A program made the translations under genes and the position numbers. A stretch of 64,000 bases of DNA, from assembly GCF_025380365.1 (NCBI RefSeq), contig NZ_JAOCQF010000001.1:2096245-2160244 (forward strand). The letters are read 5' to 3'. This DNA comes from Albidovulum sediminis. Its GTDB lineage: Bacteria; Pseudomonadota; Alphaproteobacteria; Rhodobacterales; Rhodobacteraceae. This document shows positions 5,690 to 31,406 of this stretch, one piece after another; the first letter of the stretch is position 1, and each line of letters begins with the position of its first letter. Under the pieces are notes generated by a model. It was not told the DNA's origin, ran no database searches, and saw nothing but the letters and a program-made list of their open reading frames with translations.

Positions 5690-6694
5690 TCAGCCCAGCA
5701 CCTCCGAAACCCGGACGGCGCGTCCTTCTGTCGCGGACAGGACCGCCGCATCGGCCAGCGCCAGCGCGCGCAGCCCGTCCTCGCCCGTCGTCGGCGGCGC
5801 GCGCCGGTCACGGACCGCGGCGATGAAGGCCGCGATCTCGGCCGCATAGGCCGCGGTGTAGCGGCTCATGAAGAAATCCAGAAGCGGCGGGCGCGCGAAA
5901 CCGGTCGCGGTCGCGACCTCGATCCGCGCCTCATGCGTGTTCTGCGCGCTGACGGCGCCCAGCGACCCGTGCACCTCGATCCGCTGGTCGTAGCCATAGC
6001 TTGCGCGGCGCGAGTTGGTGATGATCGCCTGCCGGCCGCTGGCCGTGCGCAGAATGACGTTCACGCTGTCATAGTCGCCCAGTTCCCCGATCTTCGGATC
6101 GACAAGGACCGAGGCCGCCGCCAGGACCGTCTCCGGCTCCTCCCCCAGCAGCCAGCGCGCCATGTCGAAGTCGTGGATCGTCATGTCGCGGAAGATCCCG
6201 CCGGATCGGGTGATGTAGTCGTAGGGCGGCGCGGCGGGATCGCGCGAGGTGATGGTGACCATCTCGACCGCGCCGATGGTGCCCGCGTCGATGGCCGCCT
6301 TTACCGCGGCGAAGTCGGGATCGAAGCGGCGGTTGAACCCGACCATCAGCGTGGCCCCCGCACCGTCCGCGACCGCAAGGCAGTCCCGCACCCGGCGCAG
6401 GCTCAGGTCCACCGGCTTTTCGCAGAAGATGGCCTTGCCCGCCCGCGCGAAGCGTTCGATCAGGTCGGCGTGGGTGTCGGTGGGCGTGCAGATCACCACC
6501 GCGTCGATGTCGCCCGCGGCCTCGATCGCCTCGATCGTGCGGACCTCGCAGCCGTACTGCGCCGCGACCGCCTCGGCGGCCGCAGGCATGGCGTCTGCCA
6601 CCGCGACCAGCCGCGCGTCGGCGTCGCCGGTGATGGCGCGCGCGTGAACCTTGCCGATGCGCCCCGCGCCCAGAAGCCCGAACCTCAGTGTCAT
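5690..6694 (-). CDS. Inositol 2-dehydrogenase-like oxidoreductase (IolG/MocA family)
   Basis: 334 residues of the Gfo/Idh/MocA family. Rossmann motif GAGRIG lies at residues 10-14, EKP at 92-94 (catalytic Lys93), and GGIFRDMTIHDFDMARW supplies Asp170 and His174, which match the Lys-Asp-His triad of Bacillus IolG. It oxidises a ring hydroxyl of inositol or a related cyclitol with NAD+ in the cytoplasm. It is the last gene of a five-step minus-strand operon with a cyclitol-type ABC importer. The rhizopine protein MocA belongs to the same family, so scyllo-inosamine-type substrates are possible. Exact substrate is not readable from sequence. Confidence 0.85.
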   Translation of the reverse strand: MTLRFGLLGAGRIGKVHARAITGDADARLVAVADAMPAAAEAVAAQYGCEVRTIEAIEAAGDIDAVVICTPTDTHADLIERFARAGKAIFCEKPVDLSLRRVRDCLAVADGAGATLMVGFNRRFDPDFAAVKAAIDAGTIGAVEMVTITSRDPAAPPYDYITRSGGIFRDMTIHDFDMARWLLGEEPETVLAAASVLVDPKIGELGDYDSVNVILRTASGRQAIITNSRRASYGYDQRIEVHGSLGAVSAQNTHEARIEVATATGFARPPLLDFFMSRYTAAYAAEIAAFIAAVRDRRAPPTTGEDGLRALALADAAVLSATEGRAVRVSEVLG

Positions 6695-6703
6695 GCTGTC
6701 TCC

Positions 6704-7486
6704 TTACTCCGGGTAGGCCCCGGCCACGTTCTGATCGAAATCCACGACCGACCCCGTCATCACGCCGGAAACGTCCGACAGCATGTAGGACACAAGCCCG
6801 GCCACATGGGCCGGCTTGACCAGCATGCCGAAAGGCTGCCGCGCCTCGGCCGCCTCAAGCCAGCCGTCCGTCGCGCCGTGGAATCGGCGCTGCACCGCGT
6901 CCTCTCCGGGCGTGTCCATCCAGCCGCAGTTGACCCCGTTCACCCGGATGCGATGGTGCCGCAGCGTGTGGGCCGCGTTGCGGGTGATGTTCGCCAGCGC
7001 CGCCTTGGACGCGGAATAGGGCGCGAGGCAGGTCTGGCCGCAATGGGTGACCATGGACAGGATGTTCACCGCGCTGGCCGGATGCCCCGCCGCCACCGCC
7101 CGCTGCGCGAAGCGCTGGAGCGCGAAGAAAGGTCCGCGCGCATTGACCCCCATGTGGCGGTCGAAGTCCTCTGCCGTGCAGTCGAGGATGGAGCCGCGTT
7201 CGGTTGTCGCGGCCGCATTCACCAGCGCCGTGACACGGCCGAAGCGATCCGCCGCGGCGTCGATGATCGCCACCGCGTCCGCCGTCCGGCCCATGTCGGC
7301 CGGGACGAACAGAGCCTCTGCCCCCAGCGCCGCGAGGGTGCCGGCCGCAGCCGCGCCCTCGGCCTGACGGCGCCCGGCCACGACGATGCGGTTGCATCCC
7401 TCGCGCACCAGACGCTCCGCAATTGCAAGGCCAAGGCCCTGGGTTCCGCCGGCGACGACCGCCACCGTTTCGCGATGGTCATGCAT
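6704..7486 (-). CDS. SDR-family oxidoreductase of the cyclitol operon
   Basis: 260-residue classical short-chain dehydrogenase. It has AGGTQGLGLAIA (nucleotide-binding TGxxxGxG type) near the N-terminus, an NAA motif (VNAAATTERGS), the catalytic Ser in NILSMV, and YSASK (Tyr-x3-Lys). It ends VDFDQNVAGAYPE, a normal SDR tail. Its ATG overlaps the end of the ABC ATPase gene by 8 bases, so it is co-translated with the importer. A second polyol or inosose oxidation or reduction step is the likely job. The substrate is unknown. Confidence 0.8.
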   Translation of the reverse strand: MHDHRETVAVVAGGTQGLGLAIAERLVREGCNRIVVAGRRQAEGAAAAGTLAALGAEALFVPADMGRTADAVAIIDAAADRFGRVTALVNAAATTERGSILDCTAEDFDRHMGVNARGPFFALQRFAQRAVAAGHPASAVNILSMVTHCGQTCLAPYSASKAALANITRNAAHTLRHHRIRVNGVNCGWMDTPGEDAVQRRFHGATDGWLEAAEARQPFGMLVKPAHVAGLVSYMLSDVSGVMTGSVVDFDQNVAGAYPE

Positions 7487-8243
7487 AGGTGTCCGCGCCG
7501 CCCTTCACGCCGGTGATGTAGCTGACGATGTCATTGCCGTCGGTCTCCTCCTTGCGCAGGCTGGCAACGATGCGGCCGCGGCGGAACACCACGATCCGGT
7601 CCACCAGGTCGAAGACCTGCCGCAGGTTGTGGCTGATCAGGATCATCGGGATGCCCCGTGCCTTCAGCCCGCGGATGATGTTTTCCACCTGTGCGGTTTC
7701 CTGCACGCCAAGGGCCGCGGTGGGTTCGTCCATGATCACGAGCTTCGAGGCGAAGGCCGCCGTACGCGCGATCGACACGCATTGCCGCTGTCCACCGCTC
7801 ATGTTGCGGATCGGGTTGTCGACGTTGGGGATCTTCACCGCCGTGGTCTTCAGCGCCTCGAGCGTGCGGTCGCGCATCGTCTTCTTGTCGAGCCAGGAAA
7901 ACGGCCCGAAGCGGAACCTGAACAGTTCGCGCCCGAGGAACAGGTTCGACGGCACGTCGAGGTCGTCGGCCAAAGCGAGCGTCTGGAACACCGTCTCAAT
8001 CCCGGCCTGCCGCGCCTCGAGCGGGCCTGCGAAGTGCACGGGCTGGCCGTCGAAGATGACCTCGCCCGCGGTCCGCTGCTCCACCGCCGTCACCTGGCGC
8101 ACGAAGGTGGACTTGCCCGCGCCGTTGTCGCCGACCACGGCCACGTGTTCGCCCTCGTGCAGGACGAAGTTCGCATCCTCCAGCGCGTGGACGCCGCCGT
8201 AGTGCTTGGTCAGGCCGCGGGTTTCCAGAATGATCCTCGACAT
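7479..8243 (-). CDS. ABC transporter ATP-binding protein, sugar/cyclitol importer
   Basis: About 254 residues with a single ABC domain. Walker A is GDNGAGKST, the signature MSGGQRQ, Walker B LVIMDEPTAAL, and the switch His is in LISHNL. It is half the size of RbsA/MglA-type double ATPases and matches the single-domain FrcA-type ATPases of alphaproteobacterial sugar importers. It ends ADTYA and overlaps the SDR start. The ATG at 8243 sits 5 bases after the permease stop with the site TAGGGACC. It energises uptake together with the permease and binding protein upstream. Confidence 0.88.
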   Translation of the reverse strand: MSRIILETRGLTKHYGGVHALEDANFVLHEGEHVAVVGDNGAGKSTFVRQVTAVEQRTAGEVIFDGQPVHFAGPLEARQAGIETVFQTLALADDLDVPSNLFLGRELFRFRFGPFSWLDKKTMRDRTLEALKTTAVKIPNVDNPIRNMSGGQRQCVSIARTAAFASKLVIMDEPTAALGVQETAQVENIIRGLKARGIPMILISHNLRQVFDLVDRIVVFRRGRIVASLRKEETDGNDIVSYITGVKGGADTYA

Positions 8244-8248
8244 GGTCC

Positions 8249-9361
8249 CTACCCCCTTGCCCGCGTGCGCTGCCGCCACTGGTCCAGCACCACCGCGCCG
8301 ACGATGATCGCGCCCTTCACCATCTCCTGATAGTAGGCGTCGAGCCGGATCGAGGTGAAGCCCGAGATGATCACCGAAAAGATCGCAGCTCCCAGCACGG
8401 TCCCGATGATGGAGCCGCGCCCCCCCGCCAGCGACACGCCCCCGATCACCGCCATGGCGATGGCGTCCAGTTCGTACATCACCCCCATGCCCGCCTGCGC
8501 CGTCAGGTTCTTGGAGGTGAGAAGGATCGCCGCGACCGCCGTCAGCATGCCCGCGATGGTGTAGACCAGCGCCTTGTGCCGGTCGACGTTGATCCCCGAC
8601 ATCCGCGCCGCCGCCTCGTTCGAGCCGATGGCATAGCAGCGCTTGCCGTAAAGCGTCTTCAGCATGATCAGCTGGAACAGAACGGCCAGGATCACGAAGA
8701 TCACCGCCGGGTTCTGCCCCGGCCAGGAAATCAGCCCGAAGGTCAGCCCGCCCAGGATGTCGCCGTTCGCAAGGCTGCCATAGGACTCGGTCGGGAAACT
8801 GACCGGCTGGCCGTTCGACCACCACCGCGCCACGCCACGCGCCGACACCATCATGCCCAGCGTCGCGATGAAGGGCGGGATCCGGGTGTAGGCCACCAGG
8901 GCGCCGTTCACGAAACCCGCCGCCATGCCGCAGGCCAAGCCGATCAGGATGGGCACGATCACCGGCAGGTCCATCGCCCAGTCGCCGAAGATCGCCTTCG
9001 GGTTCGGGTTGCCGTTCACGAGTGCTGTCTGCGCGAAGCTCATCACGATCATGGCGGTGGCGCCGACGACGCTGCCCGACGAAAGGTCGATGCCGCCGAG
9101 GATGATGACCTGCGTCACGCCGATGGCGATGATGCCGGTGATCGCCACCTGCAGGATCATGATGTCCAGACGTTGCTGGTTGAAGATCGCGTCGACATTG
9201 TCACGCATGTTGAAAAGGAATGACCCGCCGTTCACCCGGTTCAGCACCTCGAAGATCACGACGATGAGGACCAGCGCGCCGAACACGTTCCATTCGGGCG
9301 CGCGCGTCCGTTTCGCGGGATCGTATTTCAGGCCGCCAAGGCCATGGGTTGGCTGTGCCAC
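8249..9361 (-). CDS. ABC transporter permease, ribose/inositol type (FrcC/RbsC-like)
   Basis: 370 residues with about ten hydrophobic segments. The BPD_transp_2 block VTQVIILGGIDLSSGSVVG is near residue 105. Later blocks include AIGSNEAAARMSGINVDRHK (the cytoplasmic coupling loop) and IGGVSLAGGRGSIIGTVLGA, both typical of RbsC/FrcC/YtfT permeases. It forms the membrane channel, presumably as a homodimer. It lies between the binding-protein and ATPase genes, with a stable hairpin in the 114-base gap before it. Confidence 0.88.
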   Translation of the reverse strand: MAQPTHGLGGLKYDPAKRTRAPEWNVFGALVLIVVIFEVLNRVNGGSFLFNMRDNVDAIFNQQRLDIMILQVAITGIIAIGVTQVIILGGIDLSSGSVVGATAMIVMSFAQTALVNGNPNPKAIFGDWAMDLPVIVPILIGLACGMAAGFVNGALVAYTRIPPFIATLGMMVSARGVARWWSNGQPVSFPTESYGSLANGDILGGLTFGLISWPGQNPAVIFVILAVLFQLIMLKTLYGKRCYAIGSNEAAARMSGINVDRHKALVYTIAGMLTAVAAILLTSKNLTAQAGMGVMYELDAIAMAVIGGVSLAGGRGSIIGTVLGAAIFSVIISGFTSIRLDAYYQEMVKGAIIVGAVVLDQWRQRTRARG

Positions 9362-9436
9362 GGTGCGCTTCTCCCCCCAGGATATCCGCGGAATGGGACT
9401 TCGGCCGGCCTCTACTCATCCCGGCCGAAAAGTCTC

Positions 9437-9461
9437 GGGGCGGCAGGAATGCCGCCGCCCC
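9437..9461 (-). promoter_or_regulatory. Hairpin between binding-protein and permease genes
   Basis: GGCGGCA (9439-9445) and TGCCGCC (9450-9456) form a perfect stem around a GGAA loop, with additional GC pairing outside. On the minus strand it is followed by GAGACTTTTCGG. Such hairpins between a binding-protein gene and its permease usually stabilise the 5' message or partly terminate transcription, so the binding protein is made in excess. Confidence 0.5.
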
Positions 9462-9475
9462 GGCCCCGAGGGGCG

Positions 9476-10417
9476 TCAGTTCTTCGCCAGGTAGTCGGCA
9501 ACGTTGGCCGGCGTGACAAGCTCGAAGGGCACCCAGACCTTCTGCTCGACGGCCTCGCCCTTGGCCAGTTTCACCGCCGCGTCGAGCGAGCCGGAGCCCT
9601 GCGCAGCCGCGTTCTGGAACACGGTCACGTCCAGATCGCCCGCCTGCATCGCCGCCAGAGCGTCCTGCGTCGCATCGACGCCGCCGACCTGCACGGTCGC
9701 CATGTCGATGCCCGCGGCCTTCATCGCCTGGATCGCGCCGATCGCCATCTCGTCGTTGTTGGAGATGACGCCGTCGAAGGCGGCGCCGGTCGACAGCCAG
9801 TTTGTCATCAGGTTCTGGGCCTGGTCCCGGCTCCAGTTGGCGGTCTGCTGGTCGATCACGTTGACCTTCACCTTGCACTTGCCGGCCTCGATCACGTCGT
9901 AGATGTCCTGGGTGCGCTGCACGGCCGCCTGGTTCGACAGTTCACCCTGCATGACATAGACGTTGACCTCGGTCTTGCCCTCGGCCGCCCAGTTGTCGCA
10001 GAGCGCGATGGTCTCGAGCGTGCCCGAGTCCACCTCGTTCGAGGCGACGAAGGCCTGGTTGTCGGGCAGCGTGTCGAGGTTGATCGGCTGGCGGTTCACG
10101 TAGACAAGCGGCACGCCCGCGGCGGCGGCGGCATCCGTCATCGCCTGCGTGGCCGAGGTGTCGACCGGGTTGACGATGATCGCGTCCACGCCCGAGGCGA
10201 TGAAGTTGTTGATCTGGTCAAGTTGCTTGGCCACGTCGTTCTGGGCGTCCTCGATCTGCACGCTGTGCCCCTGTTCGTCGGCATATTTCTGGATGCCGTT
10301 CCTGAGCACGGTCAGGAAGTTGTCATCGAACAGCGCCATCGACACGCCGACCGTTTCGGCCATGGCGGTCGTTCCCATCAGCGTGGCAAAGCCCGCCACG
10401 ATCAGTGTCTTCCTCAT
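9476..10417 (-). CDS. Periplasmic sugar/cyclitol-binding protein (RbsB/IbpA/MocB-like)
   Basis: 313 residues. A signal peptide ends ...TTAMA, and the mature part starts ETVGVSMALFDDNF. The fold is the type I periplasmic binding protein (peripla_BP_4): AIIVNPVDTSA, YVNRQP and ISNNDEMAIGAIQAMKAAG are family blocks. The WSRDQAQNLMTNWL segment is common in inositol and ribose binders. It delivers the substrate to the adjacent permease. Genomic association with inositol-type dehydrogenase and isomerase genes makes a cyclitol the best guess, as for Caulobacter IbpA or rhizobial MocB. The ATG at 10417 is preceded by GGAAGAC. Confidence 0.85.
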   Translation of the reverse strand: MRKTLIVAGFATLMGTTAMAETVGVSMALFDDNFLTVLRNGIQKYADEQGHSVQIEDAQNDVAKQLDQINNFIASGVDAIIVNPVDTSATQAMTDAAAAAGVPLVYVNRQPINLDTLPDNQAFVASNEVDSGTLETIALCDNWAAEGKTEVNVYVMQGELSNQAAVQRTQDIYDVIEAGKCKVKVNVIDQQTANWSRDQAQNLMTNWLSTGAAFDGVISNNDEMAIGAIQAMKAAGIDMATVQVGGVDATQDALAAMQAGDLDVTVFQNAAAQGSGSLDAAVKLAKGEAVEQKVWVPFELVTPANVADYLAKN

Positions 10418-10508
10418 GTCTTCCTCCACATCGGGTGTCCGGCCCACCCGTTCTCCCTGAAATGATGCCGGATGGCCTCTCTGGGCCGCTCCTTCGCTTC
10501 TGTCCCGC

Positions 10509-11327
10509 CTAGGCAGCCATTTCCCCCAGTTCCTGCCGGATGAAATCGAAGGACCGGGCGAGTGCGGCCTTCGGGTCTGCAAGAGCATGCACCTCGGGGG
10601 CAAAGCTTTCCATCGAGACGGGCCCCGCGAACCCCGCCGCGCGCAGGGCGCGGATTTGGGCGATGTTGCCAAGCCGGTCGCGCCCGTCCACGAAGACGCG
10701 GTGTTCGTCGCCCATCTCGTCGACGGCAAGCTCTGGGTCGACGACGCCGGAGATGTGGATGATGCCGGTGTGGCCCGCGAAGAACGGGCCGCCGCCGGCC
10801 AGCGTGTGGTGGAACGTGTCGTGCACCAGGCGGAAGCTGTCCCCCGCCTCCAGCGCCTCGATCGTCTCGACCGCTTCGGACTTGTAGCGCAGGGCGCAGA
10901 TCTCGAAGCCCAGCGGCTCGACCAGTCCGATCAGCCCGTGATCCTCGAGCATGGGGCGGAGGTCGCGCAAAGCCACGCGCAGGTTGGCCTGACGCTCGCC
11001 GTTCCCCATGCCGAGCCCGTCGTTGCGCGGGATCAGGCTGACCGTCTCGGCCCCGCAGGCACGCGCGATCCGCATCAGTTCAAGCGCCTCGGCGGCCTTG
11101 TCGCCGGACCAGTCGTTGAAGCGCTTGACCTCGGCCACCGCCAGAAGGCGCAGCCCGCGGTCGCTCGCCATCGCACCCGCGGCTTCCGGGGCAAGCCCGT
11201 CGAACAGGGGCTGCGGCAGGTCGTTGCGCACCTCGACGCCCACGCAGCCCAGCGCTGCGGCCGTGTCGAGCAGTTCGGCGAAACTCATCCTCGCCACACT
11301 CATGTGGTTCAGCGCAAACGGCACCAT
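10509..11327 (-). CDS. TIM-barrel cyclitol/inosose isomerase-like protein (IolI/MocC type)
   Basis: 272 residues of the xylose-isomerase-like / AP-endonuclease-2 TIM barrel. The metal ligands expected of the family are visible: Glu137 (GLVEPLGF), Asp170 with His173 (LVHDTFHH), His191 (IIHISG) and Glu240 (SMESF). Relatives isomerise 2-keto-myo-inositol (IolI) or act as inosose dehydratase (IolE); rhizobial MocC is from the same group. It is the promoter-proximal gene of the minus-strand operon. The ATG at 11327 has GGAGGAAGCCGAC before it, a strong ribosome-binding site. Which reaction it performs is uncertain. Confidence 0.78.
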   Translation of the reverse strand: MVPFALNHMSVARMSFAELLDTAAALGCVGVEVRNDLPQPLFDGLAPEAAGAMASDRGLRLLAVAEVKRFNDWSGDKAAEALELMRIARACGAETVSLIPRNDGLGMGNGERQANLRVALRDLRPMLEDHGLIGLVEPLGFEICALRYKSEAVETIEALEAGDSFRLVHDTFHHTLAGGGPFFAGHTGIIHISGVVDPELAVDEMGDEHRVFVDGRDRLGNIAQIRALRAAGFAGPVSMESFAPEVHALADPKAALARSFDFIRQELGEMAA

Positions 11328-11775
11328 GTCGGCTTCCTCCCCGGTCGGCTTTCCCTGCAGCTCGACCGCGCATGACGTTCGCCCCCCGGATGGCGAGTCG
11401 TCAACGAGAGACGCCGATTTCCTTTCATTTCTGACGAACACCGGCACCCCATCAATGATGTTTTTACATCATTCATTTCCCGCCATCGCGCTGCCAACTC
11501 CCTTGCGGGATCCCAGAGCAGCATGACAGAGTCAGCTTTGTATCTGATTTCACAAGAAACTCCCACATCTTCTCACCCCTTGGCTGGACCAGGCCCGAGC
11601 TCTGGCGACAGACCCGCCGGAAGCGCCGTCCCTGCCATTGCGCCACGGATGACGAAATTCGCTCATTCATTTACCCCATTCCTGATGGCTTTTGACGTGA
11701 CATTCGCCCGCCTCCATAGGCCGACATAGGCCGGCAGGGTATCTTCACCGGCGCAATGACGACCGGGAGGGTCCG
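11328..11775. promoter_or_regulatory. 448-base divergent regulatory region of the cyclitol/moc-like island
   Basis: No gene is visible. It must contain divergent promoters for the isomerase operon (left) and the oxygenase operon (right). It contains a perfect palindrome (11454-11473, separate entry) and a tandem pair CATAGGCCG at 11715-11723 and 11725-11733, 10 bases apart. A possible -35 TTGACG lies near 11693. The middle part is more AT-rich than the flanking genes. No regulator gene is adjacent. Confidence 0.5.
11454..11473. promoter_or_regulatory. Candidate operator: perfect inverted repeat
   Basis: AATGATGT, a TTTT spacer, then ACATCATT: an 8+4+8 perfect inverted repeat about 127 bases upstream of the isomerase start. 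The size and symmetry suit a dimeric repressor such as a GntR, LacI or RpiR protein. The binding protein is unknown. A hairpin is possible but the arms are AT-rich and weak, which favours a DNA-level operator. Confidence 0.45.
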
Positions 11776-12849
11776 ATGAAACGCGACTACAGCCTGCTCG
11801 GAGAGGATGCGCGGCGCGCGGTGCAATCAGGCCTTGCCGCGGCCGAGTGGTATCACTCCGACGTGCCGCGCAAGGAAATGAAGGCCTTCATGGCGCGCGA
11901 GGATCAGCCCGCGATCCGCGACACGATCATCCTCTTCGGGGCGATGGCGACCCTGGCGGCGCTTGGCGTCGCGCTCTGGCCAAGCCTTTGGTCGGCGCCG
12001 TTCTGGCTGGCCTATGGCGTCCTTTACGGGTCGGCGATGGATTCACGCTGGCACGAATGCGGCCATGGCACCGCTTTCCGGACCGCCTGGATGAACAACG
12101 CGGTCTACCAGATCGCGTCCTTCTGCATGGTCCGCAATCCCGTGACCTGGCGCTGGAGCCACGCGCGCCACCACACCGACACGATCATCGTCGGGCGCGA
12201 CCCGGAGATTGTCGCGATGCGGCCGCCCGCGCTTTTCCGCATCGTGCTGAACCTCTTCGGCATCCTCGACGCCTGGAACGGCTGGGCGCGGATGCTTCTG
12301 AACGCCAGCGGCAGGCTCGACCCGGAGGAGGCGAGCTTCATCCCCGAAAGCGAGCATCCCAAGGTCATCCGCGTGGCCCGCATCTGGGTGGCGATCTATG
12401 CCGCGACCCTTGCCGTCGCGGTCTGGACGGGGTCCATCCTGCCGCTGATGCTGATCGGCCTGCCCCGGCTTTACGGCGCCTGGCACCACGTTCTGACCGG
12501 CGTGCTTCAGCACGCGGGGCTGGCCGACAACGTGGTGGATCACCGGCTGAACAGCCGCACCGTCCACATGAACCCGATCAGCCGCTTCATCTACTGGAAC
12601 ATGAACTACCACGTCGAACACCACATGTTCCCGATGGTGCCCTATCACCGCCTGCCGGCGCTCCACGACCGCATCAAGGACGACCTTCCCGCGCCCAACC
12701 CCTCGATGTGGCACGCCTACCGGGAGGTGCTGCCGGTCCTCAGGCGCCAACTCGCCCACGAAGACTATTTCCTCAGGCGCGAGCTGCCCGCCACCGCGCG
12801 GCCCTACCGCGAGGATTTCCATGCCGCCGCGGCCGGAAACGCCGCCTGA
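11776..12849 (+). CDS. MocD-like membrane di-iron oxygenase (fatty-acid desaturase superfamily)
   Basis: 357 residues. Three histidine clusters mark the integral-membrane di-iron desaturase/hydroxylase superfamily: HECGH (93-97), HARHH (129-133) and HVEHH (279-283). QHAGLADNVVDHR (245-257) adds the His-rich loop typical of this branch. There are about four membrane segments (residues 51-83 and 203-235 clearest). GGGAGG precedes the ATG. The next gene is a Rieske ferredoxin, the usual electron donor. Rhizobial MocD, which with MocE and MocF demethylates 3-O-methyl-scyllo-inosamine, is of this type. O-demethylation of a methylated cyclitol is therefore the favoured role; lipid desaturation is the alternative. 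Confidence 0.75.
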   Translation: MKRDYSLLGEDARRAVQSGLAAAEWYHSDVPRKEMKAFMAREDQPAIRDTIILFGAMATLAALGVALWPSLWSAPFWLAYGVLYGSAMDSRWHECGHGTAFRTAWMNNAVYQIASFCMVRNPVTWRWSHARHHTDTIIVGRDPEIVAMRPPALFRIVLNLFGILDAWNGWARMLLNASGRLDPEEASFIPESEHPKVIRVARIWVAIYAATLAVAVWTGSILPLMLIGLPRLYGAWHHVLTGVLQHAGLADNVVDHRLNSRTVHMNPISRFIYWNMNYHVEHHMFPMVPYHRLPALHDRIKDDLPAPNPSMWHAYREVLPVLRRQLAHEDYFLRRELPATARPYREDFHAAAAGNAA

Positions 12850-12876
12850 GACACCAGAAAACCAAGGGAGAGAGAG

Positions 12877-13194
12877 ATGACCGACTGGATTGATGCTTGC
12901 GGCGCGGAGGATGTCGACGCCGAAGACGTGATCCGCTTCGACCACGGCGGGCGGACCTATGCGATCTATCGCAGCCCGGAGGATGACTATTTCTGCACCG
13001 ACGGGCTTTGCACGCACGAACAGGTCCATCTGGCCGATGGCCTTGTCATGGATCACCTGATCGAATGCCCCAAGCATAACGGCCAGTTCGACTACCGCAC
13101 CGGCGAGGCGATGCGCGCGCCCGTCTGTGTGAACCTGCGCACCTATCCGGCGAAGGTCGAGGGCGGGCGCGTGCTGATCGGGGTGGCGTCGTGA
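12877..13194 (+). CDS. MocE-like Rieske [2Fe-2S] ferredoxin
   Basis: 105 residues. The two Rieske motifs are Cys45-Thr-His47 (LCTHEQVHL) and Cys64-Pro-Lys-His67 (ECPKHNGQFD). This is the C-x-H / C-x2-H ligand set of oxygenase-type ferredoxins, without extra domains. It should pass electrons from a reductase to the di-iron oxygenase encoded 27 bases upstream. No ferredoxin reductase (MocF equivalent) is nearby, so a shared reductase is implied. AAGGGAG lies before the ATG. The stop TGA overlaps the next ATG by one base. Confidence 0.85.
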   Translation: MTDWIDACGAEDVDAEDVIRFDHGGRTYAIYRSPEDDYFCTDGLCTHEQVHLADGLVMDHLIECPKHNGQFDYRTGEAMRAPVCVNLRTYPAKVEGGRVLIGVAS

Positions 13195-13991
13195 TGCGGC
13201 ACAACCGGATGACCGTGGCCGGTCTGCGCGCCCTGAAGGGCCGCCGCCAGATGACCATGCTCTATGTCGAAACGCTTGACGAGGCGCGCGCGGCGGCGGC
13301 GGCGGGGATCGACATCCTGTCGATCATCGACCCGCTCTGGACCCCGGCGATGCGGGAAGCGGCGGGCGACTGCTTCGTCCAGGTGGGGCTCCTCTACGGC
13401 GAGCTTGTGACGACCGAGGATTACCTGCGCGCGGCGCACCGCGCGATGCGGATCGGCGGCGACTGCGTCTATTGCGCGGCCGGGCTCGGCACCATCCGGG
13501 CGCTGGCGGAGGAGGGGATCCCGGTCATCAGCCATGTCGGGCTGATCCCGTCCAAGGCCACCTGGACCGGCGGGTTCAAGGCGGTGGGCAAGACCGCCGA
13601 CAGCGCGCTGGCCGTCTGGCGGCATGTGCAGGCGCTGGAGGAGGCGGGCGCCCTCGGCGCGGAACTTGAGGTCGTGCCGGAACGGGTCGCCACCGAGATT
13701 TCGCGGCGCACCTCGCTTCTCCTCTTCTCGATGGGGGCGGGGGCCGGGGCGGATGCGCAGTATCTGTTCGCCGAGGATGTGCTGGGCTGCACGCGCGGCC
13801 ACCGCCCGCGTCACGCCAAGACCTACCGCAACTTCGCCGCGGAGTACGAGCGGCTTCAGCAGGAACGGATCGCCGCCTTCCGCGAATTCGCCGGCGAGGT
13901 GCGGAGCGGCGCCTACCCCGCGCCACAGCACCTTGTCCCGATCGAGCCGGAGGAATTCGACGCCTTCCTGAGCGCGCTTGGCGCGGGCTGA
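13194..13991 (+). CDS. Divergent PanB-like (ketopantoate hydroxymethyltransferase family) protein
   Basis: 265 residues collinear with PanB: LSIIDPLW (Asp46 matches the metal-binding Asp of the GDSLG motif), SHVGLIPSKATWTGGFKAVG (PanB HxGLTPQ...GGYKVQG), LEVVPE (catalytic-type Glu159), GAGAGADAQ, and the C-terminal EVRSGAYPAPQH. Two catalytic sites are changed: the second metal-binding Asp region (LADLPF in PanB) reads FVQVGLLY, and KIEGG reads YCAAG, so the conserved Lys is Tyr93. It is therefore probably not the pantothenate enzyme. It is translationally coupled to the Rieske gene, so it likely works in the cyclitol pathway. GTG at 13191 is an alternative start. Confidence 0.75.
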   Translation: MRHNRMTVAGLRALKGRRQMTMLYVETLDEARAAAAAGIDILSIIDPLWTPAMREAAGDCFVQVGLLYGELVTTEDYLRAAHRAMRIGGDCVYCAAGLGTIRALAEEGIPVISHVGLIPSKATWTGGFKAVGKTADSALAVWRHVQALEEAGALGAELEVVPERVATEISRRTSLLLFSMGAGAGADAQYLFAEDVLGCTRGHRPRHAKTYRNFAAEYERLQQERIAAFREFAGEVRSGAYPAPQHLVPIEPEEFDAFLSALGAG

Positions 13992-13994
13992 CCG

Positions 13995-14753
13995 TCAGAC
14001 GGCGAAGGCCCGCCGGATCAGGTTCAGCCCGGTGATGGTCAGCACCACCAGCGTCCAGCGCCGGAAGCGCGCGGGGTCCAGCCGGTCCTGAATCGCGAAG
14101 CCCAGCCAGAGACCGGCCAGCGCGGGCAGCACCAGCCCCGCCGACAGCCAGAGCCTGTCGGGCGTGATGACGCCCGACCCCGCGTGTCCGGCCAGCAACG
14201 CGGCTGAACCGATCATGTAGACCACCCCCTGCACCCGCACGCTTTCGCGCTTGCCGGCGTCGAGCGACACCAGAAGCGCGATGGTGGGCGGGCCCCAGAC
14301 ACCCGAAAGCCCGCCATAGACGCCCCCGACAAGTCCGCTCAGCACCTCGGCCCGGCCGCGGTGGCGTGCGTCGAACCGGATCTGGCGCCCGGCAAGCTGG
14401 CTGAGCGCGAACAGGACGATGGGCAGACCCAGGGCCCCCAGCAGCAGCGCCTGAGGCATCCGTGGCACCGCCTGCGCGGTCAGAAGGACAAAGACCACCA
14501 GCGTCGCGATCATCCGCCAGTAGCCCCGGACCGCCGCAAGCGCCGCCGCCGGCCCCTGCCGCAACGCCTGCACGCAATTGGTCAGCAGCGTCGGCAGAAT
14601 CAGCGCCACCAGCGCCTCTTCCGCGGGAAGAAAGGAGGCGAGGCCCGAGATCATGATCATCGGCATGGCAAATCCGACCGCCCCCTTGACGAGGCCGGCC
14701 AGAAGGGTGACGCCCGCCGCCATAAGAAATATCGTCAGATCGAGTCCGAACAT
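13995..14753 (-). CDS. TauE/SafE-family membrane transporter
   Basis: 252 residues with about eight hydrophobic helices. Family blocks are GLVKGAVGFAMPMIMISGL near the start and GLVGGVYGGLSGVWGPP in the middle. TauE/SafE proteins export sulfite or sulfoacetate, or transport other small organic anions. It converges tail-to-tail on the PanB-like gene with only three bases between them, and diverges from mcd. The ATG at 14753 has AAGGGGCG upstream. Substrate is unknown; no sulfonate genes are nearby. Confidence 0.8.
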   Translation of the reverse strand: MFGLDLTIFLMAAGVTLLAGLVKGAVGFAMPMIMISGLASFLPAEEALVALILPTLLTNCVQALRQGPAAALAAVRGYWRMIATLVVFVLLTAQAVPRMPQALLLGALGLPIVLFALSQLAGRQIRFDARHRGRAEVLSGLVGGVYGGLSGVWGPPTIALLVSLDAGKRESVRVQGVVYMIGSAALLAGHAGSGVITPDRLWLSAGLVLPALAGLWLGFAIQDRLDPARFRRWTLVVLTITGLNLIRRAFAV

Positions 14754-14916
14754 CGACAATCGCCCCTTCGCGCCCGCTATAGCCTTGGGGCAAAGGGTCT
14801 GCACGGAGAAATTGAACGCGACACTTTCGTGCGATCCGTGCAAACTTCACGAATTAATATTGCGCTGCGATTGCGAAATGGCTAGGAGAGTGCAACCGCA
14901 GCAAGGGAGCCGACAG
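14754..14916. promoter_or_regulatory. Divergent promoter region tauE / mcd with a direct repeat
   Basis: ATTGCG occurs at 14859-14864 and 14870-14875, exactly 11 bases apart (one helical turn), in an AT-rich stretch before mcd. Short-chain-acyl regulators of the RamB/PccR/ScfR family are known to control ethylmalonyl-CoA or related genes through TTTGC-type repeats. The match here is only partial, so this is a suggestion. Confidence 0.35.
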
Positions 14917-28394: not shown

Positions 28395-29285
28395 TCAGGC
28401 CGTCAGCCCCTCGGGCTCCGGCAGGCCGTTGGCCCGGCAGCAGGCCGTCAGGGTATTGGCCAGCAGGCAGGCGATCGTCATCGGCCCGACCCCGCCCGGC
28501 ACCGGCGTGATGGCGCCGGCCACTTTCGCGGCGCCCGCGAAGTCGACGTCGCCCACCAGCACGGTCTTGCCGCCCCGCTCGATCCGGTTGATGCCGACGT
28601 CGATCACGGTGGCGCCCGGTTTGACCCAGTCGCCGGGGATCATCTCGGGCCGGCCCACGGCGGCCACGAGGATGTCGGCGCGGCGGCAGACCTCGCCCAG
28701 GTCCTTCGTCCGGCTGTGCGCAATCGTGACCGTGCAGCTGTCGCCCAACAGCAACTGCGCCATCGGCTTGCCGACGATGTTCGACCGGCCCACGACGACC
28801 GCGTCCATGCCCGCAAGCGAGCCGTGATGGTCGCGCAGCATCATCAGGCAGCCAAGCGGCGTGCAGGGCACCATGCTCTTCTGCCCCGTCCCCAGCAGGC
28901 CGACGTTCGAGATGTGGAACCCGTCCACGTCCTTCGCCGGGTCGATGGCATTGATCACGAGGTCGGAATCGAGGTGCTTCGGCAGCGGCAGCTGCACCAG
29001 GATGCCATGCACCGCAGGATCGGCGTTGAGCTTGCCGATCAGCGCCAGAAGATCGGCCTCCGACGTTGCGGCATCCAGCTTGTGCTCGTAGGAATTCATC
29101 CCCGCCTCGACGGTCGACTTGCCCTTGGAGCGGACGTAGACCTCGCTTGCCGGGTCTTCGCCGACCAGCACCACGGCCAGGCCGGGGGTGATCCCGTGGT
29201 CGGCCTTCAGCCGCGCCACATGCCCGGCCACCTCCGCGCGCACCCGCGCCGCAAAGGCCTTGCCGTCGATGATCTTCGCCGTCAT
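28395..29285 (-). CDS. folD: Methylenetetrahydrofolate dehydrogenase/cyclohydrolase
   Basis: 296 residues. [16 protein letters not shown] contains the catalytic Lys of YxxxK-type folate dehydrogenases, QLPLPKHLD is the folate-binding motif, and [17 protein letters not shown] is the NADP-binding segment. The bifunctional enzyme interconverts 5,10-methylene-THF, methenyl-THF and 10-formyl-THF. It is the partner of formate-THF ligase (fhs) encoded upstream in the same direction. The ATG overlaps the chorismate mutase stop by 4 bases. No terminator separates it from the convergent rfbA. Confidence 0.94.
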
Positions 29286-29729: not shown

Positions 29730-31406
29730 TCAGAAAAGCCCCTCGACATGGCCTTCGGCATTCAGGCGGATCACCTCCGCGCTCGGCACCTTGGGCAGGC
29801 CCGGCATGGTCATGATCTCGCCGCAGATGGCGACGATGAACCCCGCCCCTGCCGAAAGCCGCACCTCGCGCACCGGCACCGAGTGACCGGTCGGCGCGCC
29901 GCGCAGGTTCGGATCGGTCGAGAAGCTGTATTGCGTCTTCGCCATGCAGATCGGCAGGTTGCCGTAGCCGGCCGCTTCCCAGGCCTTCAGCTGATCGCGG
30001 ATCGACTTGTCGGCGATGACCTCGTCGGCATGGTAGATGCGCTTGGCGATCGTCTCGATCTTCTGGAACAGCGGCATCTCGTCGGGGTAGAGCGGGGCGA
30101 AGTTCGCGGCCCCGCTTTCGGCCAGATCGACCACCTTCCGCGCCAGATCCTCGATCCCGGCCGAACCGTTCGCCCAGTGCTTGCACAGGATCGCCTCGGC
30201 CCCCTGTTCGGCGACATAGGCCTTGACCGCTGCAACCTCGGCATCGGTGTCGGAGTAGAAGTGGTTGATCGCCACCACCACCGGCACGCCGAAGCTCTTC
30301 ACGTTGGCGATGTGGCGGCCAAGGTTCGGGCAGCCCTTCTTGACGGCCTCCACGTTCTCGGCGCCAAGGTCGGCCTTCGCCACCCCGCCGTTCATCTTCA
30401 TCGCGCGCACGGTGGCGACGATCACGGCGGCGGCGGGCTTCAACCCGGCCTTGCGGCACTTGATGTCGAAGAACTTCTCGGCGCCCAGGTCCGCGCCGAA
30501 GCCCGCTTCGGTCACGACATACTCACCCAGTTTCAGCGCCGTCTTGGTCGCGATGACCGAGTTGCAGCCATGGGCGATGTTGGCGAACGGGCCGCCGTGG
30601 ACGAAGGCGGGGTTGTTTTCCAGCGTCTGCACCAGGTTCGGCTGCATCGCGTCCTTCAGAAGGACGGTCATCGCGCCGTCGGCCTTGACGTCACGGGCAT
30701 AGATCGGCGACTTGTCGCGGCGATAGGCGACGACGATGTCGCCAAGCCGCTTCTGCAGATCCGCCAGGTCCTTCGACAGGCACAGGATCGCCATCACTTC
30801 CGAGGCGACCGTGATATCGAAGCCGGTCTGCCGCGGGAAGCCGTTCGAGACGCCGCCCAGCGACACCACGATGTCACGCAGCGCACGGTCGTTCATGTCC
30901 ATGACGCGGCGCCAGGTCACGCGGCGTTCGTCGATCTGAAGCTCGTTGCCCCAGTAGATGTGGTTGTCGATCATCGCCGACAGAAGGTTGTGGGCGGAGG
31001 TGATCGCGTGGAAGTCACCGGTGAAGTGAAGGTTCATCTCCTCCATCGGCACGACCTGCGCATAGCCGCCGCCGGCGGCGCCGCCCTTCATCCCGAAGTT
31101 CGGCCCGAGCGAGGCTTCGCGGATGCAGACGACCGCCTTCTTGCCGATCCGGTTCAGCCCGTCGCCAAGGCCCACGGTCGTCGTCGTCTTGCCCTCGCCC
31201 GCCGGCGTCGGGTTGATCGCGGTGACGAGGATGAGCTTGCCGTCCGGCCGACCCTCGAGCGAGCGGATGAAGTCCTGGCTCACCTTCGCCTTGTCGTGGC
31301 CATAGGGCAGCAGGTGTTCGGTCGGGATGCCAAGCTTGTCGCCGATCTCCTGGATCGGCTTCTTCTTCGCCTCGCGCGCGATTTCGATGTCGGTCTTGAA
31401 CGCCAT
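29730..31406 (-). CDS. fhs: Formate-tetrahydrofolate ligase
   Basis: 558 residues, the usual length. The nucleotide loop [14 protein letters not shown] lies near residue 65. [27 protein letters not shown] is the diagnostic Fhs block, with [13 protein letters not shown] later. It makes 10-formyl-THF from formate, ATP and THF, feeding formate carbon into folate metabolism together with FolD. AGAGG lies before the ATG. It would recycle formate or oxidised formaldehyde, for instance from demethylation reactions. Confidence 0.96.

Follow-up and report, generated by a model that had tools for sequence, protein, structure and literature searches.

Gene content of the island and pairing of its arms

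The DNA considered here is a window of 64,000 nt (the whole stretch that was analysed) from Albidovulum sediminis, a member of the Rhodobacteraceae. An island of nine genes, defined by open reading frames and family profile matches, is located at positions 5690–13991 and consists of two divergent arms (Table 1). The minus-strand arm encodes a triosephosphate isomerase (TIM) barrel isomerase, the binding protein, permease and ATPase of an ATP-binding cassette (ABC) importer, a short-chain dehydrogenase/reductase (SDR) and IolG. The plus-strand arm encodes a MocD-like oxygenase, a MocE ferredoxin and a PanB-like protein, termed PanBL below. An earlier note on this DNA gave gene names and positions that are correct: open frames are present there and the family profiles match. 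It read the island as a locus for uptake and oxidative O-demethylation of a methylated cyclitol. A cyclitol uptake island is supported by the predicted functions of the genes, which include an IolG that scores as an equivalog and are complemented by iolCDEB elsewhere in the genome; demethylation is added by inference. The PanB-like gene had no place in that account and is the least explained and novel part of the island.

Table 1. Features of the island, with positions in the window
Feature	Position	Strand	Family match or remark
IolG-type inositol 2-dehydrogenase (GFO/IDH/MocA)	5690..6694	-	TIGR04380, 417.9 bits, above cut-off of 355
SDR oxidoreductase	6704..7486	-	NF004847, 345.1 bits, cut-off 240; same position in L014, L015 and several loci of the order sample (see text)
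Sugar-type ABC importer ATPase, single domain	7479..8252	-	PF00005; best-scoring NCBIfam models are those of sugar importers, with scores under the cut-off
Sugar-type ABC importer permease	8249..9361	-	PF02653
Periplasmic binding protein	9476..10420	-	Best PDB sequence match 4yo7
IolI/MocC-like TIM-barrel isomerase	10509..11330	-	PF01261; no NCBIfam family
Operator-like dyad TGATG-N6-CATCA	11456..11471		With W (A or T) on both sides, sole copy in the genome
MocD-like membrane di-iron oxygenase	11776..12849	+	PF00487; boxes HECGH, HARHH, HVEHH
MocE-family Rieske 2Fe-2S ferredoxin	12877..13194	+	TIGR02377, 183.6 bits, above cut-off of 136.15
PanB-like protein (PanBL)	13191..13991	+	PF02548; TIGR00222, 97.3 bits, below cut-off of 207.55

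The binding protein is closest in sequence to PDB entry 4yo7 (E 1.3e-53, runner-up 2.1e-37), the ligand of which we take to be myo-inositol. By fold, the Z score of 4yo7 (41% identity) ties with those of other sugar-binding proteins. The TIM barrel is nearest to 4hgx and 2q02 (E 1.1e-21) and shows a weaker similarity to IolI, 1i60 (E 4.4e-5). The SDR may oxidise a further cyclitol or an inosose. The genes iolC, iolD, iolE and iolB are clustered at approximately C11:922–928 kb of the same genome, and because of this the ring product can be consumed. A TauE/SafE-type exporter gene at positions 13995–14843 on the minus strand is oriented toward the PanBL gene.

Two collections of loci were compared. 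The 80-locus set consists of 80 loci kept of 247 genome-contig loci with a PanB-like alignment and was chosen by likeness to MocD-linked PanBLs. The order sample consists of 390 genomes drawn evenly across the order and searched for PanBL at E 1e-45. Both were picked via PanBL and have genomes in common, so that their counts are not additive. A phylum sample of 398 genomes overlaps the order sample. Copy counts take PanBL copies of at least 200 aa, with L203 (a short match with a stop) left out, and the 72 order-sample matches gave 71 sequences after one fragment was dropped. Co-occurrence was scored at thresholds of at least 55% identity for MocD and at least 60% for IolG, and some loci end early at contig ends or at the 10 kb flank limit.

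MocD and PanBL are found together in 69 of the 80 loci of the 80-locus set. These 69 loci also carry MocE (69), LacI (66), MocF (50), the TIM-barrel gene (42), the binding protein (39), the permease (39), IolG (21) and iolC or iolD (13). The 26 loci of the order sample with both genes carry MocE (24), LacI (15), the TIM-barrel gene (14), the binding protein (12), the permease (11), IolG (11), iolC or iolD (5) and MocF (1). At least one of the TIM-barrel, binding protein, IolG and iolC/D genes is present in 50/69 and 15/26 loci, respectively. In Marivivens sp. LCG002 the two arms are joined in the order LacI (minus strand), mocD, mocE, an opposite-strand hydrolase gene, PanBL, TIM-barrel gene, binding protein, permease, ATPase, iolG, iolC, iolD and iolE, and the proteins are 60–77% identical to those of the window where compared.

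LacI genes of near kin stand between the arms, and none is found in the 64 kb window. The dyad TGATG-N6-CATCA is present in 14 of 117 regions upstream of MocD; 13 of the 14 are at –131 to –156, and that of the window is at –324. In the one shuffled control, no dyad was found in more than 3. Little can be concluded from the count by itself because related genomes share sequence, and the loci L023 and L024, as well as L050 and L244, come from the same organisms. It is a point against the dyad that others are as frequent or nearly so in the 117 regions (GGCTT-N10, 14; TGATA-N5, 14; TTGAT-N7, 12; CGGTC-N0, 11). Seven relatives were scanned for the placement of the dyad. L014 and L028 have an exact dyad before each arm, so that the LacI gene is flanked by two, and in L015 both places hold dyads with one mismatch. 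In L204 an exact dyad is present on the TIM side alone, in L201 a dyad with one mismatch on the MocD side alone, and L019 and L247 have weaker dyads only. The window dyad is the TIM-side copy and aligns with that of L014. Flanked by W at both ends, it has a single copy in the 4.29 Mb genome (reversed control, 0). A search of the window for one-mismatch dyads is at chance, with 2 found and 1.45 expected.

A counterpart of the LacI gene is located on another contig (G000:C14:115442–116473, L139:8943–9974) and is 79% identical to the Defluviimonas copy. Its neighbours there are KDO-transferase-like and enoyl-CoA-hydratase genes. The encoded regulator is proposed to control the island in trans through the dyad.

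The gene set recurs in Rhodobacterales and Rhizobiaceae. The earlier note had paired the arms from their position and had suggested asking how often the PanB-like gene and the ABC genes co-occur. The permease and binding protein counts above bear the pairing out, as do the synteny, the dyads before both arms in relatives and the single dyad in the window, and these genomic comparisons support a pairing that is more than positional.

A PanB-like family with an altered metal site

PanBL differs from PanB, the ketopantoate hydroxymethyltransferase, not only in scoring below the PanB family cut-off. The window protein has Gly66, Tyr94 and Ala96 at the places of PanB Asp84, Lys112 and Glu114, while Asp47 is kept. 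Presumably the Mg ligands of PanB are Asp45, Asp84 and Glu114 (E. coli numbers). Among 90 PanBL rows, Gly is found at position 66 in 89 and Ala or Ser at position 96 in 88; position 47, the place of Asp45, is Asp in 35 rows, that of the window included. On this alignment the PanBL subfamily has lost two of the three presumed Mg ligands. Intact D/D/K/E letters are present in 10 of 13 PanB comparison rows, which include divergent rows as well as L107, itself a fragmented PanBL island. The PanBL tree was made by a quick method, and the outgroup does not form one side of a branch. The nearest folds to the predicted PanBL model are PanB, followed by phosphoenolpyruvate (PEP)-mutase/methylisocitrate-lyase entries.

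The distribution of PanBL is patchy (63 of 390 order-sample genomes and 19 of 398 phylum-sample genomes), and the nearest loci are from Defluviimonas, with 86–87% identity, which fits the Rhodobacterales origin given as probable in the earlier note. The A. sediminis genome also holds another, full-scoring PanB-family protein. Public records name PanBL "3-methyl-2-oxobutanoate hydroxymethyltransferase", i.e., the ketopantoate enzyme (L003, L004, L005, L006 and L150), a name that a sizeable family probably bears in error. No publication on the pairing of MocD with PanBL was met in searches of an open-licence library, as judged from the papers listed. A third PanB homolog of the same genome is divergent (G000:C11:412985–413752; L013:2923–3807, minus strand) and adjoins a uvrB-like reading frame.

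PanBL genes are commonly found near oxygenase genes. In the order sample, 35 of the 43 core copies (those with the core letters) are within 3.2 kb of an oxygenase gene, 31 of MocD type and 4 of PF04116 (FA_hydroxylase) type, and MocE is near 35 of the 43. The 28 non-core copies include 19 with an oxygenase of either type within the same distance, and in the 80-locus set the figure is 74 of 84 copies. PF04116 was assigned by Pfam in L040; the other cases are marker matches. Eight core copies are without a near oxygenase. In four of them (L250, L251, L252 and L261) an oxygenase gene occurs at a greater distance within the same 20 kb stretch; MocE and PurU are present in L243, MocE is 7.7 kb away in L256 and L257, and L260 has neither marker. 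By comparison, none of the MocD, sterol-desaturase, MocE and PurU markers was found in 17 other PanB-family loci, which span about 1.5 kb per side versus 3.2 kb for PanBL.

A different partner is found in one metagenome-assembled genome (MAG), in which an MTTB methyltransferase gene, together with genes for a rhamnose-type importer and an FGGY kinase, precedes PanBL (L041:3700–10792). An MTTB marker match also lies about 4 kb from PanBL in L217. The PanB homologs of L239 and L240 fall outside the PanBL clade. The VanA-type Rieske oxygenase beside the homolog of L240 was considered as a further partner and is not counted as support, the homolog being outside the clade.

The oxygenase and the rhizopine question

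The three histidine boxes of MocD (Table 1) are typical of the membrane di-iron class. The window protein is 68–86% identical to nine of the 18 MocD-like proteins compared and 30–64% identical to the other nine; a homology-named mocD product of CP001075.1 is 74% identical. A second FA_desaturase gene of the genome (G000:C11:1529808–1530922), with a product 35% identical to MocD, adjoins a Rieske stretch that resembles MocE and scores below the cut-off (58 bits).

The possibility that MocD and MocE hydroxylate or desaturate a target other than an O-methyl group, either a lipid or a C-H bond in a deoxy sugar or cyclitol, has to be considered, as the Pfam family is that of fatty acid desaturases and MocD has no solved structural relative of weight. 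The genome has four other PF00487 paralogs, of which the closest is 35% identical to MocD. In a quick tree, two of them (L282 and L284) fall with the more divergent MocDs on branches that are very long, and no lipid-desaturase model is passed by any of the four. The tree covers MocDs and these paralogs, which goes half of the way to the comparison with true lipid desaturases suggested in the earlier note. However, the window MocD is in a group of six rows, all MocDs from PanBL loci, with a Shimodaira-Hasegawa-like approximate likelihood ratio test (SH-aLRT) value of 99. Its score with the DesB model is 35.3 bits against a cut-off of 500, and it shares its operon with genes for sugar uptake. 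A target of this other kind is considered quite improbable. Demethylation by MocD is suggested by analogy with moc genes and by the gene company.

The earlier note had also pointed to a rhizopine as a candidate substrate. Some features resemble rhizopine genes: MocE is above its family cut-off, and the oxygenase, ferredoxin, IolG/MocA-like and binding protein genes with ABC import have counterparts of the same kind in the moc region of S. meliloti L5-30, as far as the account of it was covered (PMC10107442). That same part describes a locus with a MocR regulator and mocF and with a binding protein of another family, and does not mention PanBL. The ten proteins scanned at 5690–14843 include no MocR, a result that covers this part of the window only. 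In the window, the binding protein scores 37.6 bits against a cut-off of 420 with the MocB-type rhizopine model NF052284, no MocF marker match is present in the whole 64 kb (E 1e-10), and kin carry LacI. The NF052284 model is passed in only one of 41 rhizobial genomes or records, that of Shinella sp. SUS2 (G097, the genome of L092), and the MocD marker was not found in 19.5 kb around the passing binding protein. A true rhizopine (3-O-methyl-scyllo-inosamine) catabolic locus is thus very improbable here, and that part of the earlier reading is not upheld. An O-methyl-inositol appears to be the better guess for a substrate.

The arrangement also resembles rhizobial loci with FixV-like LacI, msi119-like and mocDEF genes, in which a LacI/GalR gene is divergent from mocD and, in R. 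etli and R. leguminosarum, a TIM-barrel epimerase gene is beside LacI-mocD. The authors propose an inositol derivative as signal (PMC3538637, in the part covered). Of the kin loci counted above, 66/69 have LacI and 42/69 the TIM-barrel gene. The A. sediminis island differs in that mocF is absent, LacI is on contig C14, and the importer and IolG are attached. The naming of the rhizobial loci as rhizopine loci rests on homology. The mocDEF genes beside a FixV homolog with a TIM-barrel epimerase have already been noticed, and a PanB-like gene is not mentioned in the part of that paper covered (PMC3538637). PanBL is what is new in the island.

Proposed pathway and the fate of the one-carbon unit

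With moderate confidence, the island is read as a catabolic locus for an inositol that bears an O-methyl group (such as ononitol, pinitol or sequoyitol) and in which PanBL is proposed to pass a one-carbon unit to tetrahydrofolate (H4F). The ABC importer would bring the cyclitol in. MocD, with electrons delivered via MocE and an unlinked reductase, would hydroxylate the O-methyl group, and the hemiacetal would collapse to free inositol and a one-carbon unit at the level of formaldehyde. IolG and the SDR would oxidise the ring, the TIM-barrel enzyme would convert inosose isomers and IolCDEB would finish the breakdown. PanBL would pass the one-carbon unit to H4F to give 5,10-methylene-H4F, which FolD and formate–tetrahydrofolate ligase (FTL) in this organism, or PurU in some kin, would turn to formate.

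The role of PanBL is suggested by the chemistry of PanB, which in reverse at its folate half-site would load a one-carbon unit onto H4F. The PanB metal serves to enolise the keto acid, and a PanB with a broken metal site in which the His and Glu are kept is therefore what one might expect for loading. We tentatively suggest, with less than even confidence, that PanBL represents a PanB-fold class without the enolising metal site, which catches formaldehyde or the hydroxymethyl group of the hemiacetal onto H4F and accompanies O-demethylating oxygenases from more than one family in operons for sugars and cyclitols.

A link to folate genes is seen in some relatives. The order on plasmid pMHb of M. 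huakuii is mocD, mocE, mocF, PanBL, purU and folD, and both purU and folD match their models. The order is the same on plasmid p_4 of R. leguminosarum RCAM2802, except that PanBL is split in two there. In the 80-locus set, 15 of 84 PanBL copies have purU within 3.5 kb, in all cases at 300 bp or less and in 13 of the 15 on the same strand, and about 0.25 such neighbours are expected. The expectation is from 88 PurU matches in 38 mainly rhizobial genomes, with 8.6 kb per locus and 6.4 Mb per genome applied to all loci. The purU-linked cases include Sinorhizobium/Ensifer, Rhizobium, Loktanella, Flavimaricola, a Marivivens MAG and a beta-proteobacterial MAG; four of the 15 cases are fragments or weak (L043, L072, L080 and L085). 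The purU genes of L038 and L061 were checked with the PurU model and both pass. One of 12 further loci from the phylum sample has purU near PanBL. Chloromethane users likewise have folD and purU joined to their demethylation genes for an H4F-linked oxidation, in which the methyl group enters via corrinoid methyltransferases and not as formaldehyde (PMC3621897, in the part covered). The A. sediminis genome has one FTL gene (approximately 29733–31397) with an adjoining FolD gene (28395–29285), both on the minus strand of the window. This pair, about 14–17 kb from the island, is probably ordinary housekeeping.

Several observations weigh against the proposal. No purU is within 3.5 kb of 69 of the 84 PanBL copies, and in the order sample it is within that distance for only 3 of 71, one of which is the same Marivivens genome as L038. 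The gene folD is beside PanBL on the two plasmids only and in 0/80 loci of the 80-locus set, and the A. sediminis genome has no PurU match at E 1e-40. Confidence in the one-carbon role of PanBL is reduced by the 3/71 count and by the Asp that the window protein has retained at the Asp45 place. The selection of the 80-locus set favours the MocD-PanBL pairing, and mocF is missing from the window. No inositol marker is present in the sequence covered of 19/69 and 11/26 MocD-PanBL loci, and the cassette therefore serves other substrates too. PanBL was not found in two (L145 and L149) of five loci fetched via MocD and scanned (L145, L146, L148, L149 and L150), so that demethylation, if this is the role of MocD, need not have PanBL. 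L148 looks like a moc locus of this kind, a reading that was rejected when a marker search revealed PanBL in two pieces, followed by purU and folD.

Alternatively, PanBL may be an enzyme that acts on the ring or side chain in cyclitol or sugar breakdown (a retro-aldolase, isomerase or hydrolase of the PanB/PEP-mutase fold), or a non-enzyme. The nearest folds are consistent with this, the cassette is often accompanied by sugar dehydrogenases, isomerases and importers, and most copies are without purU. However, the partner oxygenases belong to different families (PF00487 and PF04116) and the partner is once MTTB, and what these would share as a product is a one-carbon unit; the purU and folD linkage also argues for transfer of such a unit. 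We regard a ring-acting or non-enzymatic PanBL as rather unlikely and retain transfer to H4F as the working proposal.

Plants commonly contain methylated inositols as solutes; to our knowledge, the bacterial genes that break these compounds down are poorly defined. The island represents a testable gene set for this breakdown. If PanBL does link the capture of formaldehyde to folate, this would represent a new means of handling the toxic product of demethylation. The LacI-mocD arrangement has been tied to a possibly inositol-like signal that switches on nitrogen-fixation genes in Mesorhizobium loti (PMC3538637, in the part covered), and the substrate of the island bears on the question of what that signal is.

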